Below are positions 11,801-14,640 of a stretch of DNA of 64,000 nucleotides, piece after piece. Position numbers and translations under genes: made by a program. The DNA lies in NCBI RefSeq assembly GCF_001661595.2, contig NZ_LYPF02000012.1, positions 124,001 through 188,000 on the forward strand, in the 5' to 3' direction. The notes under the pieces are model-generated. The model saw only the letters and a list, made by a program, of their open reading frames with translations. It had not been told where the DNA came from and ran no database searches. The first letter of the stretch is position 1, and each line of letters opens with the position of its first letter. The stretch is from Crocinitomix algicola. GTDB lineage: Bacteria; Bacteroidota; Bacteroidia; Flavobacteriales_D; Crocinitomicaceae.

Positions 11801-11836
11801 AAAAAACACCATCTGATTTACTCAGACAGTGTTTTT
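11801..11836 (-). terminator. his operon attenuator terminator
   Basis: On the minus strand the transcript folds into a 15-bp stem (arms 11822-11836 and 11802-11816, two G-U pairs) with a 5-nt loop at 11817-11821, and a run of six T lies at the 3' side. It sits between the His-rich leader peptide and hisG. The left arm can instead pair with leader-peptide sequence CTCAGGCA..GTG (8 + 3 pairs around a 2-nt bulge). A third pairing, CATTTTCAT with GTGAAAGTG over the leader stop codon, competes with that. These are the 1:2, 2:3 and 3:4 helices of a translation-coupled attenuator. Confidence 0.88.
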
Positions 11837-11864: not shown

Positions 11865-11921
11865 TCACTTTGCCTGAGAGCAAATATGAAAATGATGATG
11901 ATGTAGTGCTATTCTGTTCAT
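11865..11921 (-). CDS. hisL: his operon leader peptide (5 His codons)
   Basis: A short reading frame reading MNRIALHHHHFHICSQAK (18 aa), with four consecutive CAT codons and a fifth two codons later. Its stop codon lies 28 nt before the terminator hairpin upstream of hisG. By analogy with enteric hisL, a ribosome stalling at the CAT codons when charged tRNA-His is scarce would free the antiterminator segment and allow transcription of the operon. The peptide itself needs no other function. Confidence 0.9.
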   Translation of the reverse strand: MNRIALHHHHFHICSQAK

Positions 11922-12008: not shown

Positions 12009-13295
12009 TTAGTGTTTTGAATTAGTTTGTTCTAATGCGCTTTTTAAATCATTTTTTAAATCCTCAACATTTTCTAATCCAATTGATAAACGAATCAAAT
12101 CTGGAAAAACACCAGTCTGTACTTGGTCTTCTGCTGATAATTGTTGATGCGTGGTACTTGCTGGGTGAATAATGAGTGATTTTGTATCGCCGATATTGGC
12201 TAGTAAAGAAAAAAGCTGAGTTGAATCCGTAAACTTCTTAGCAGCTTCAAAGCCTCCTTTTAATCCAAAAGTAACAAGACCACTTTGGCCATTGGTTAAG
12301 TATTTTTGACTAAGCTCGTGATAATTACTTGAAGGAAGACCAGGGTAATTTACCCATTCTACACCTTCTTGATTTTGTAGCCATTTAGCAATATGTAACG
12401 CATTTTCGGAGTGTTTTTTTATTCGAATAGGTAAAGTTTCTAATCCTTGAATAATATGAAATGCGTTGAAAGGACTTATTGCCGCTCCCAAGTCACGTAA
12501 TCCTTCAACTCTTAATTTCACTAAAAATGCTGCGGCTTTAAATGTTTCAAAAAATTTTAATCCGTGATATCCTTTTGAAGGTTCAGTAATTTCAGGAAAA
12601 TTACCATTGCCCCAATCAAAATTTCCGGCATCAACAACAGCACCGCCAAGTGAGTTTCCCTGACCACCAATATATTTGGTTAACGAATGAATGACTAAAT
12701 TGGCGCCATAGTCAATTGGTTGTATTAAATAAGGTGTTGCTATTGTATTGTCCACAATCAGTGGTATTTTATATTTTTGAGCAATTTTAGCAACTTTCTC
12801 AATATCAATAATATCTAGTTTAGGATTCCCAATTGATTCGATAAAAATGACTTTTGTATTTTCATTAATATTTTTTTCTATTTCTTCACTTTGGTTGGCG
12901 TTTACAAAAGAGGATTTGATTCCATAACGGGGTAAGGTGACATTCAAAAGGTTAAAGGTTCCACCGTAGAGGCTATTGGAGGCAAGAATGTGATCGCCGT
13001 TTTTAAGTAAAGTTAACAAGGTCGAAGATATTGCAGCTGTTCCCGAGGCAAAAGTTACACTTCCAATTCCACCCTCTATGGCTGCTAAGCGTTTCTCGAG
13101 GATATCGTTTGTAGGATTATTTAAGCGAGAATAAATGTAGCCAAACTCTTTTAATCCAAAAAGATTTGCAGCATGATCGGTGTCGTTAAAGACGTATGAG
13201 GTTGTCTGATAAATGGGAACTGCTCTTGTTCCTTCTGTTAAATTTGTTTCGTGTCCAGCATGTAAAGCGGAGGTCGTTTTATCTATCGTTTTCAT
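12009..13295 (-). CDS. metY: O-acetylhomoserine sulfhydrylase (Cys/Met-metabolism PLP enzyme)
   Basis: A 428-aa PLP enzyme of the Cys/Met family. Visible are GYIYSRLNNPTNDILEKRLAA near the start, SGTAAISSTLL, IVDNTIATPYLIQP with its cofactor Asp, and the PLP lysine in HSLTKYIGGQGNSLGGAV (about residue 210). The length (about 428 rather than 380-400) and the GYIYSRLNNPT and HSLTKYIGG stretches favour MetY: O-acetylhomoserine plus sulfide gives homocysteine. A MetZ or cystathionine synthase role is less likely. It is a single gene, 155 bp upstream of convergent sequence ends, and is controlled by the tandem leaders at 13325-13605. Confidence 0.88.
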   Translation of the reverse strand: MKTIDKTTSALHAGHETNLTEGTRAVPIYQTTSYVFNDTDHAANLFGLKEFGYIYSRLNNPTNDILEKRLAAIEGGIGSVTFASGTAAISSTLLTLLKNGDHILASNSLYGGTFNLLNVTLPRYGIKSSFVNANQSEEIEKNINENTKVIFIESIGNPKLDIIDIEKVAKIAQKYKIPLIVDNTIATPYLIQPIDYGANLVIHSLTKYIGGQGNSLGGAVVDAGNFDWGNGNFPEITEPSKGYHGLKFFETFKAAAFLVKLRVEGLRDLGAAISPFNAFHIIQGLETLPIRIKKHSENALHIAKWLQNQEGVEWVNYPGLPSSNYHELSQKYLTNGQSGLVTFGLKGGFEAAKKFTDSTQLFSLLANIGDTKSLIIHPASTTHQQLSAEDQVQTGVFPDLIRLSIGLENVEDLKNDLKSALEQTNSKH

Positions 13296-13324: not shown

Positions 13325-13365
13325 AAAAAAAAGTCCCTTCAGTTATGTATTACCGAAGGGACTTG
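13325..13365 (-). terminator. Proximal attenuator terminator upstream of metY
   Basis: On the minus strand, arms 13352-13364 and 13331-13343 form a 13-bp stem (one G-U) followed by eight T. It ends about 30 bp before metY. Sequence GGTAATAC in its left arm and loop is perfectly complementary to GTATTACC near the end of the second leader peptide gene, giving a ready antiterminator. Confidence 0.88.
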
Positions 13366-13384
13366 AAAATGTGTTTTGCTTTTC

Positions 13385-13450
13385 TCAATCTGGGTAATAC
13401 CTTATCCTGATGCGCATAGTCATGCACATTGTATTTTTACAACAACACAT
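13385..13450 (-). CDS. Second Cys/Met-rich leader peptide upstream of metY
   Basis: A 21-codon reading frame starting MCCCKNTMCMTM and ending in a charged/aromatic tail (RIRIRYYPD). Four Cys and three non-initial... in total four Met codons fall within its first 12 codons. It lies between the distal and proximal terminators, 20 nt before the proximal stem. The codon bias toward Cys and Met, the end products of the metY pathway, and its 8-bp antiterminator match to the following hairpin support a leader-peptide role. No homologue is known to me. Confidence 0.8.
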   Translation of the reverse strand: MCCCKNTMCMTMRIRIRYYPD

Positions 13451-13482
13451 TTTATTTATCCTTTTTACACTCATTTCAATTC

Positions 13483-13516
13483 AAAAAAAAAGTCCTTCGC
13501 AAATGCAAAGGACTTC
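13483..13516 (-). terminator. Distal attenuator terminator upstream of metY
   Basis: On the minus strand, arms 13505-13515 and 13490-13500 form an 11-bp stem (one G-U) with a 4-nt loop, followed by nine T. The left arm contains CCTTTGC, which can pair with GTAAAGG at the end of the first leader peptide gene (7 pairs, one G-U). The core AAGTCC/GGACTT is shared with the proximal terminator, as if the unit had been duplicated. Confidence 0.87.
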
Positions 13517-13542
13517 AAGTTCTATTTATGTTAAAACAATAG

Positions 13543-13605
13543 CTATGCCTTTACGTAATTTTCATTACCCATCATACAGCACATCATTGTTATTTTGTTT
13601 TTCAT
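13543..13605 (-). CDS. First Met/Cys-rich leader peptide upstream of metY
   Basis: A 20-codon frame, MKNKITMMCCMMGNENYVKA, with the block Met-Met-Cys-Cys-Met-Met at codons 7-12. It begins 6 nt after a good -7 element and is followed by the distal terminator. Ribosome stalling in the Met/Cys block would be expected when charged tRNA-Met or tRNA-Cys is low, letting the polymerase pass the first hairpin. Together with the second leader this makes a two-step gate before metY. Confidence 0.83.
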   Translation of the reverse strand: MKNKITMMCCMMGNENYVKA

Positions 13606-13611
13606 AGGAGG

Positions 13612-13643
13612 CAAACTTAGTAAATAAATGATTTAAATAACAA
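13612..13643 (-). promoter_or_regulatory. Bacteroidota-type promoter of the metY leader
   Basis: The minus strand has TTG (13641-13643), a 21-nt spacer, then TAAGTTTG (13612-13619), fitting the TTG / TAnnTTTG consensus and its usual spacing. The first leader ATG follows only 6 nt after the -7 element, so the start site should lie at or just before the ATG. Confidence 0.65.
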
Positions 13644-13698: not shown

Positions 13699-14640
13699 TT
13701 ATTTTGCTCCCCATATCCCTTCCGCAGTATAAGGTCCCCCTTCAAATTCCCAAAATTTACCATCGATAAAGCGATGACTTAGGTTGATATCATCAATTTC
13801 TTTAATCTCTTCATTTGATAATTCAACAGCGGTAGCGTTAAAATTTTGAGCAATTCGTTTTTTATTGGTGGATTTTGGAATGACAGATATATTTCTTGCC
13901 ATATTCCAAGCTAACGCAATTTGAGCAGGTGAGCAGTTTTTTTCTTCAGCAAGCTTTAAAATTGTTTGGTTTTCTAAAATACTAATGCTTTTTTCTGCAT
14001 TTCCACCTGAGCCAATTGGTGCATAAGCTGTAAGGTGAATTCCCTTTTGGTTACTATATTCAAGGAGTTCATTTTGAGGTAGAAGAGGGTGGATTTCTAC
14101 TTGATTCACTTCTGGTTTATGGTTGGATTTATCCCATAAATTTTCTAAATCCTTTGTATTAAAATTACTGACCCCAATGTGACGCGTTAAACCTTCATTT
14201 AAGACACTCTCCATTCCTTTCCAAGTTTCGGAAATTGGCAGTTCTGATAAAGGAATAAAATCATCACCTTTTGAGGGCATTACAATGTCGTGTTTCAAAG
14301 CCACAGGCCAATGTACAAGATATAAGTCCAAATAATCTAGTTTTAAATCCTCAAGTGTTTTTTTTAGAGCAGGTAAAACATTTTCTTGGCCGTGCGAATT
14401 ATTCCATAATTTAGACGTTACCCATAAGTTCTCTCGTTTAACAATTCCTTGTTTTATAGCTTCTTGAATGGCATCACCAACTTCCGATTCATTTCCATAA
14501 ATTGCGGCGCAATCAATATGTCTGTATCCTTCTTTAATTGCAGTAAGAACAGCGTCGTATACTTCATTTGGTTGAGATCTAAAAGTTCCTAAGCCGAGAA
14601 TAGGCATCTCGTCGTGATTTTTAAATTTTATCGTTTTCAT
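13699..14640 (-). CDS. Aldo/keto reductase
   Basis: A 313-aa NADPH aldo/keto reductase of the classical AKR branch, different from the one at 2.5-3.5 kb. It has LGLGTFRSQPNEV, the catalytic Asp/Tyr in RHIDCAAIYGNESEVG (about 44-55), Lys in VTSKLWN, His in LVHWPVALK, and IPKSTNKKRIAQN for the cofactor phosphate. The substrate is unknown; such enzymes often detoxify aldehydes. It is 2 bp downstream of the MFS gene and probably in one operon with it and the DJ-1 gene. Confidence 0.9.
   Translation of the reverse strand: MKTIKFKNHDEMPILGLGTFRSQPNEVYDAVLTAIKEGYRHIDCAAIYGNESEVGDAIQEAIKQGIVKRENLWVTSKLWNNSHGQENVLPALKKTLEDLKLDYLDLYLVHWPVALKHDIVMPSKGDDFIPLSELPISETWKGMESVLNEGLTRHIGVSNFNTKDLENLWDKSNHKPEVNQVEIHPLLPQNELLEYSNQKGIHLTAYAPIGSGGNAEKSISILENQTILKLAEEKNCSPAQIALAWNMARNISVIPKSTNKKRIAQNFNATAVELSNEEIKEIDDINLSHRFIDGKFWEFEGGPYTAEGIWGAK

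Follow-up and report, generated by a model that had tools for sequence, protein, structure and literature searches.

Two short reading frames rich in Met and Cys codons lie in series on the minus strand upstream of metY in the 64-kb stretch of the Crocinitomix algicola genome analyzed here (the window), each with its own predicted terminator. The metY gene (12009–13295, minus strand, as are all features below) encodes a 428-aa protein of the O-acetylhomoserine aminocarboxypropyltransferase/cysteine synthase type that matches NCBIfam TIGR01326 with an E-value of 4.9e-191 (634.9 bits, cut-off 495.1). Leader 1 (MKNKITMMCCMMGNENYVKA, 20 aa) occupies 13543–13605, and 6 nt 5′ of its ATG lies TAAGTTTG (13612–13619), which we take to be a −7 promoter element of the Bacteroidota type, with a TTG another 24 nt upstream (13641–13643). 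TAnnTTTG or a one-base variant is found 4–29 nt 5′ of the leader-1 ATG at 18 of 20 tandem loci; at three loci (L001, L036 and L141) only 4–6 nt separate the −7 element from the ATG, so leader 1 may come from a nearly leaderless message. Terminator 1 (13489–13516) comprises a 12-bp stem with a T run to 13483 and is recovered in the alifold consensus of 20 sequences. Leader 2 (MSVKRINKMCCCKNTMCMTMRIRIRYYPD, 29 aa) spans 13385–13474 and precedes terminator 2 (13331–13364), a 13-bp stem with a T run to 13325. The initial annotation had described the TTG/TAAGTTTG promoter, the 20-aa leader 1 and a terminator after each leader followed by metY, all of which we confirm; its second frame is likewise present, but the start it assigned at 13450 (MCCCKNTMCMTMRIRIRYYPD) is less likely than the in-frame ATG 24 nt earlier at 13474, which adds eight codons and yields a 29-aa peptide; of the 15 other leader 2 peptides compared, 11 are similar in length (26–30 aa). 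Next door to metY, a histidine leader peptide (MNRIALHHHHFHICSQAK, 11865–11921) followed by a strong terminator (11802–11836) precedes hisG and by its looks represents an ordinary His attenuator; the hisG start at 11812 (MVFFHLKG...) falls inside this terminator, and the true start is therefore probably later (MSKLKIAVQKSGRL).

Among the 743 short ORFs of the window (8–45 aa, ATG start, both strands), leaders 1 and 2 rank first and second in Met/Cys density. When the 345-nt region was dinucleotide-shuffled, an ORF this dense in Met/Cys appeared at least once in 1 of 5,000 cases and twice in 0 of 5,000. Met and Cys make up 28% of in-frame codons across 20 leader-1 sequences and 33% across 15 leader-2 sequences, compared with 11–13% and 2–3% in the other two frames. 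A search of NCBIfam models with ten of the leaders returned no match. It is barely credible that the small ORFs are chance frames and that the hairpins merely terminate transcripts of the aldo/keto reductase-type oxidoreductase gene that lies upstream on the same strand (13699–14640), as a promoter element stands between that gene and leader 1, terminators follow conserved leaders before metY in other genomes, and the shuffles, the in-frame enrichment and the covariation described below all argue against this reading.

No Rfam family reached its gathering score in the window. The SAM-I aptamer (RF00162) was found neither in the window at gathering score nor in the leader interval up to an E-value of 10, and no T-box matched in the window or, sub-threshold, in the interval. 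The 22 sub-threshold matches in the interval begin with RsaJ (E 0.01, 20.2 of 100 bits), followed by BsrG (E 0.097), Phe_leader (E 0.11, 23.4 of 55 bits) and Leu_leader (E 0.14, 19.2 of 50 bits). A riboswitch of the SAM-I, SAM-II or any other class was rejected for this interval, Rfam having found none; an aptamer covering these positions was the result that the initial annotation had named as evidence against leader-peptide control.

We next compared the ends of the two leader frames with their downstream terminators. In module 1, region 2 (CGTAAAGG, 13548–13555) at the end of the leader 1 frame pairs with region 3 (CCTTTGC, 13505–13511) in the left arm of terminator 1 as GTAAAGG/CCTTTGC with one G-U, and in module 2, region 2 (GGTATTACCC, 13392–13401), which codes for the RYYP end of leader 2, pairs with region 3 (GGTAATAC, 13347–13354) in the left arm and loop of terminator 2 as a perfect GTATTACC/GGTAATAC duplex. 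The initial annotation had reported these pairings, which do exist, but in the window sequence alone neither is better than those of shuffled leader tails (p 0.32 and 0.18), and support for 2:3 pairing comes from relatives, not from the window genome taken alone. Both window modules fold better than shuffled sequences (z −4.95 and −4.64; 0 of 200 as good). Among relatives, the mean duplex energy between a leader tail and its own terminator is −12.4 kcal/mol in module 1 (n=18), compared with −10.2 kcal/mol for cross-species combinations, and −13.7 versus −9.9 kcal/mol at the second position (n=16, two from single-leader loci). Shuffle p-values below 0.05 were obtained for 14 of 18 module-1 and 14 of 16 second-position sequences, figures that, like the other shuffle results and the Fisher test below, overstate significance because related sequences are not independent.

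Alignments of module 1 (A2, 20 sequences) and module 2 (A4, 19 sequences) were then analyzed for compensatory change; both omit L032, a near copy of L031 and L033, and the later finds L240 and L242, and A4 also omits L179. The module-1 2:3 helix is paired in 85% of cells and has a covariation score of 0.254 versus 0.168 in shuffled alignments (0 of 500 as high); at column pair 67–128, 11 sequences have G-C and 9 have A-U. Shuffled alignments equaled the observed number of doubly changed pairs in 72 of 500 cases and the observed number of pair types in all 500. In module 2, the nine pairs of the 2:3 helix are paired in 97.6% of cells, 5 of 9 are changed on both sides, and the covariation score of 0.296 compares with 0.164 in shuffles (0 of 500 as high) and at most 0.096 in slid versions of the helix; the pair-type count was reached by 241 of 500 shuffles. 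RNAalifold, given the alignment as sole input, returned the same nine module-2 2:3 pairs as its consensus. The covariation check proposed in the initial annotation thus reveals compensatory change in the hairpins and in the leader-end pairings. Poor fits are L179 in module 2, which aligns badly and whose genome has no match to the module-1 model described below, and L147 in module 1 (4 of 7 pairs). The conserved C-terminal residues of the leaders (YAKG in module 1, YYPD or YYPN in module 2) would be explained by RNA pairing of the leader end and, we infer, do not reflect peptide function.

A further hairpin, missing from the pairing scheme of the initial annotation, is predicted on the last Met/Cys codons of the leaders. 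In module 1 this 1:2 hairpin, a putative protector or pause structure indicated by folding and by relatives, begins with the last Met codon of leader 1 (13552–13571), and in module 2 the corresponding hairpin (ATGTGCATGACTATGCGCAT, 13410–13429) is predicted by folding and varies among relatives. The module-1 1:2 helix is paired in 89.2% of cells, with 4 of 8 pairs changed on both sides; its covariation score was equaled by 1 of 500 shuffles and its pair types by 73 of 500, and an outer extension of the helix seen in single folds is not kept in the alignment. At many loci the 5′ arm of 1:2 is built from the final ATG TGT pair of codons. The hairpin overlaps the start of region 2, and 2:3 can still form beside it in 12 of 20 folds. 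A scheme with no region 1, in which the default without translation would be ON, is weakened by this folded hairpin.

The spacing of these elements fits a stalled ribosome that leaves region 2 free and a ribosome at the stop codon that covers it. Across 20 module-1 loci, the last Met/Cys codon lies 7–17 nt before region 2 (10–15 nt in 18 of 20, the exceptions being 7 nt in L052 and 17 nt in the window), and region 2 ends 2–15 nt before the stop codon. Transcripts ending at the terminator loop were folded with a ribosome mask placed either on the last Met/Cys codon or at the stop. In the stalled position, the leader pairs with 6 or more bases of the terminator 5′ half in 18 of 20 module-1 and 14 of 16 module-2 sequences, versus 201 of 1,000 and 152 of 800 controls of shuffled sequence; for a ribosome at the stop, the absence of leader–terminator pairing (0 of 20 and 0 of 16) follows by construction of the mask. 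When no ribosome is present and the 3′ arm has yet to be made, 2:3 forms in 12 of 20 module-1 and 15 of 16 module-2 sequences, and in the window it forms in module 2 and not in module 1. Complete module 1 folded without a ribosome forms the terminator in 20 of 20 sequences.

Together, these comparisons indicate that metY is very probably controlled by two ribosome-mediated transcription attenuators in series, and the best reading of the codon content is that they sense charged tRNA-Met and mostly also charged tRNA-Cys. When charged tRNA-Met (or tRNA-Cys) is scarce, a ribosome would stall on the Met/Cys codons ~10–17 nt (7 nt in one locus) before region 2, melting 1:2 and leaving region 2 free; 2:3 would then form as the RNA emerges, block the terminator and allow RNA polymerase to read through. 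When Met and Cys are plentiful, the ribosome would proceed to the stop codon, 2–15 nt past region 2, and cover region 2 so that the terminator forms. Since polymerase must pass both terminators to reach metY, the effects of the two modules would multiply, which would steepen the response and reduce leakage. The switch apparently allows methionine synthesis only under shortage of sulfur amino acids. Action on translation or through Rho-dependent rather than intrinsic termination is very unlikely here: Rho has been proposed for mycobacterial Cys leaders that lack a conserved terminator (PMC1262725), whereas a stem containing G-C pairs and followed by a T run is present in 20 of 20 module-1 sequences and in module 2 outside the Lutimonas-type loci. 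Within this Lutimonas-type clade the second terminator is weak in L050, L052 and L144 and undetected in L042, L051, L081 and L093. All seven of these loci retain the module-2 2:3 pairing, and TATTTTTG, which could be a second promoter, lies just 5′ of the weak or undetected second terminator.

We determined how widely this arrangement is conserved by collecting metY upstream regions through protein similarity and additional fetched stretches. The resulting census of 154 metY loci is non-random and consists of 71 of the best 80 of 265 relatives (nine, L102–L110, labelled outside Bacteroidota, were dropped and L096, labelled Chlorobiota, was kept), L001–L006, sets of 17 and 30 loci, and 40 hand-picked among those listed of 184, minus ten duplicates; four loci (L038, L046, L174 and L204) have less than 600 nt of upstream sequence. 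By inspection, 21 of 126 loci in the metY tree carry tandem Met/Cys leaders, and two more tandem loci were found later (L240, whose leader pair is that of L032, and L242). A same-genus genome encodes MCCMMCRLIYANGIVI and MMNNKFCCCLMEMCMMMHIMQPYYPD before metY, and tandem leaders are also present in relatives labelled Flavobacteriaceae, Saprospiraceae, Sphingobacteriales and Chlorobiota, with example pairs MKEQTTNMACMMCKEIYAKVMIV and MINNQTIVCCCFQQMYMCMIIYIMLWYYPN, and MNFIKMNMMCCCMCKKPYATGSLC and MKRFKKNMMMCCCFMMCKANPPLYYTN. The leader frames are thus kept in relatives, a test set in the initial annotation, and while the peptide sequences vary the class of Met/Cys codons is kept. In another family, L005 and L006 have single mixed Met/Cys leaders before metY (ending MMCFMCCMCTCMR and MCCMHMMNIMCMYSCTMC), with a strong terminator found in L006 and not in L005.

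The mention of SAM riboswitches in the initial annotation as the usual expectation for Bacteroidota also proved sound, with SAM-I upstream of metY at 107 of the 154 census loci and placed directly 5′ of metY by Rfam in many; the regular expression used for SAM-I was compared with Rfam at 80 loci and gave the same result at all 80. Thirteen of these 107 loci also carry a poly-Cys leader and one has a chance ORF. Leaders were counted automatically (ATG start, 6–60 aa, density of at least 4), and at this threshold the 47 loci lacking SAM-I comprise 18 with at least two Met/Cys-dense leaders, 9 with one and 20 with none, a count that errs both ways: it takes L042, L081 and L093 for single although inspection shows them to be tandem, credits L051 with two because of a distant frame, and includes L066, which looks spurious. 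A Met/Cys leader therefore occurs in 27 of 47 loci without SAM-I and in 1 of 94 loci with SAM-I, the 13 poly-Cys loci set aside (Fisher p 3e-15). Mapping the tandem label onto the metY tree requires 6 changes, versus 19.5 for shuffled labels; the tree was built by a quick method with a midpoint root and has several open forks and long branches, including that of the window. Ten rows fall outside the main fork of the Flavobacteriaceae-type clade, and every one of them is tandem, suggesting that the tandem state is likely ancestral.

Both kinds of sensor coexist in the window genome, where SAM-I riboswitches occupy two other places. One lies upstream of genes for an alpha/beta hydrolase, which on our reading of its position is metX, a homoserine dehydrogenase and a Cys/Met PLP enzyme, and the other lies upstream of a split B12-dependent methionine synthase. 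Window-type metY was found at an E-value of 1e-120 in 2 of 9 genus genomes including that of the window, two of the seven genomes without it being 67% and 84% complete. As such metY genes and leaders occur in other families and this metY is rare in the genus, gene and leader were probably acquired together.

We also ran models of the two modules, R1 (module 1) and R2 (module 2), on 21 genomes, 19 of which supplied a model sequence or a near copy, so that metY matches in the source genomes arise by construction. R1 gave one strong match in 18 of 21 genomes, each just 5′ of metY, with weak matches only in G071 (E 0.016 and 0.042) and none in G376 and G282. R2 gave one strong match at metY (E below 2e-6) in 19 of 21 and a match of E 1.2e-4 before metY in G071, together with further matches away from metY down to E 3e-4; six weak R2 places inspected in five genomes, among many listed, contain no Met/Cys-dense ATG-started frame of 6–50 aa. 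In the window genome, metY accounts for the one R1 match and the one strong R2 match, and five other R2 matches have E-values of 0.016–0.097. Across 395 genomes of the phylum, R1 yielded three matches below 1e-4, in the window genome, in G870, whose leader peptides are those of L032, and in G831. The G831 match precedes an EamA transporter gene (PF00892, E 2.5e-28) that is divergent from metY (locus L242). There, metY has tandem leaders MNLIICNMCCMMWKLPQSTSIA and MNVIAKNMMSCIMMHMMMCCITICYYQELKT with two terminators, and the EamA transporter has its own tandem leaders MKNNRQNNMNKMRNMMCCKHYLWNELA and MKTLHHNEMCHKSCRCMKMRLCCC with two terminators in modules largely unlike those of metY in sequence. 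Leader tail–terminator pairing in three of the four G831 modules ranges from −10.8 to −15.3 kcal/mol and is −8.5 kcal/mol in the fourth. The EamA protein is a candidate Met/Cys transporter. By the R1 model the tandem arrangement appears rare at phylum scale, and this model misses diverged copies, as shown by the unmatched metY copy in G831.

A different combination of sensors occurs in the family of the window genome in another metY lineage (52–56% identical), where 13 of 19 loci have SAM-I and a poly-Cys leader (L003, L004, L119–L125, L129–L131 and L134) and the remaining six have neither. The poly-Cys frame has ~40 codons, directly follows SAM-I and ends in a run of Cys codons, and these loci form one clade with support 98. 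SAM-I followed by such a frame is a possible double sensor of SAM and Cys. No T-run terminator was seen by eye after the poly-Cys frame, and in most of these loci a GGGCC-containing segment follows its stop codon. Both window leaders instead carry mixed Met/Cys clusters at least 8 codons ahead of the stop, which sets them apart from poly-Cys attenuators.

The initial annotation had proposed a two-stage gate for Met and Cys. Attenuators in series are supported, but a division of labor between one Met stage and one Cys stage is rejected, as both leaders hold both codon kinds in most loci. It is possible, though in our judgment doubtful, that Met alone is sensed and that the Cys codons are passengers or tune 1:2 pairing through the TGT codon. 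Internal Met codons are universal (20 of 20 leader-1 and 16 of 16 leader-2 sequences), the leader-1 cluster of the Lutimonas-type clade contains Met only, and at many loci the last ATG TGT codons belong to the 1:2 arm. Leader 1 lacks any Cys at 3 of 20 loci, and other Lutimonas-type loci carry Cys outside the cluster. Against sensing of Met alone stand runs of Cys codons outside the hairpin arm (CCC in leader 2 at 7 of 16 loci) and the poly-Cys leaders paired with SAM-I in the family of the window genome; the latter suggest that Cys is wanted as a second signal for metY. The Met-only cluster of the Lutimonas-type clade points to Met as the constant and Cys as the variable signal of the two attenuators. 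Met/Cys-rich peptides can also bind copper, and cysteine-rich copper-responsive uORFs are known. A copper-responsive leader peptide is nevertheless highly improbable at this locus, where the regulated gene is metY and SAM-I occupies the same place in many relatives; the order of Met and Cys varies while codon class and distance to region 2 are kept, as codon counting would predict and a metal-binding motif would not.

Attenuation by ribosomes, attenuators that read Cys and attenuators in tandem have each been described before. The trp, his, leu and thr attenuators share with the metY leaders a short frame with regulatory codons, alternative 2:3 and 3:4 hairpins, with a candidate 1:2 hairpin in addition, and a terminator before the structural gene, whereas the metY leaders combine Met with Cys codons and would place two complete attenuators in series. 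Methionine genes are usually described under SAM riboswitches, T-boxes or repressors. The leader of Salmonella mgtCBR has two short ORFs for which attenuation of transcription was proposed (PMC3641672). It differs from the metY tandem in serving a gene outside sulfur amino-acid metabolism and in responding to signals other than Met and Cys, reportedly ATP and proline. Cysteine attenuators likewise place Cys codons in a short frame upstream of a sulfur or Cys gene: actinobacterial cys/cbs operons have poly-Cys leaders (PMC1262725; Canestrari 2020 is also cited on these), and in Rhodobacterales uORFC-8-2, which has an intrinsic terminator, precedes cysS (PMC8632094). As described in these sources they differ from the metY leaders in being single leaders in other phyla, with Cys codons alone and, in Actinobacteria, with the Cys run near the stop. 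Within Bacteroidota, short 5′ leader frames suggest attenuation in transcriptomes of Flavobacterium psychrophilum (PMC9723704) and Bacteroides thetaiotaomicron (PMC7366714), the accessible parts of which name no amino acid, met gene or tandem arrangement. A 2010 survey states that before its Firmicutes case leader-peptide systems were known only in Proteobacteria and Actinobacteria, ermC aside (PMC2965389). Among the matches listed in open-access literature on methionine, poly-Cys, tandem and Bacteroidota attenuation we found no Met or Met/Cys attenuator, a prior description being possible, and no paper was found there on a SAM riboswitch combined with a leader peptide in flavobacteria. SAM-I before Flavobacteriaceae metY resembles the tandem leaders in position, gene and presumably task, and differs in being a SAM-binding aptamer that stands without a Met/Cys leader in 93 of 94 loci outside the poly-Cys group.

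On balance, we favor a model in which this metY lineage probably started out with a double Met/Cys attenuator, which was swapped several times with SAM-I, with Met sensed by ribosome stalling, the two-in-series design used also before an EamA gene, and SAM-I joined to a poly-Cys leader in another metY lineage. Reading of charged tRNA would here do what SAM-I presumably does through SAM for many related metY genes, so that one and the same gene has SAM-I as its sensor in many relatives and apparently relies on charged tRNA in others. Since metY can be found under either sensor, one can ask which signal matters, how RNA sensors are exchanged and what is gained by two terminators, in a short element with no evident protein regulator and sharp predictions. 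If this model is true, two attenuators in series would serve a steep response, and charged-tRNA and SAM sensing would be interchangeable or combinable modules in the control of sulfur metabolism in Bacteroidota.
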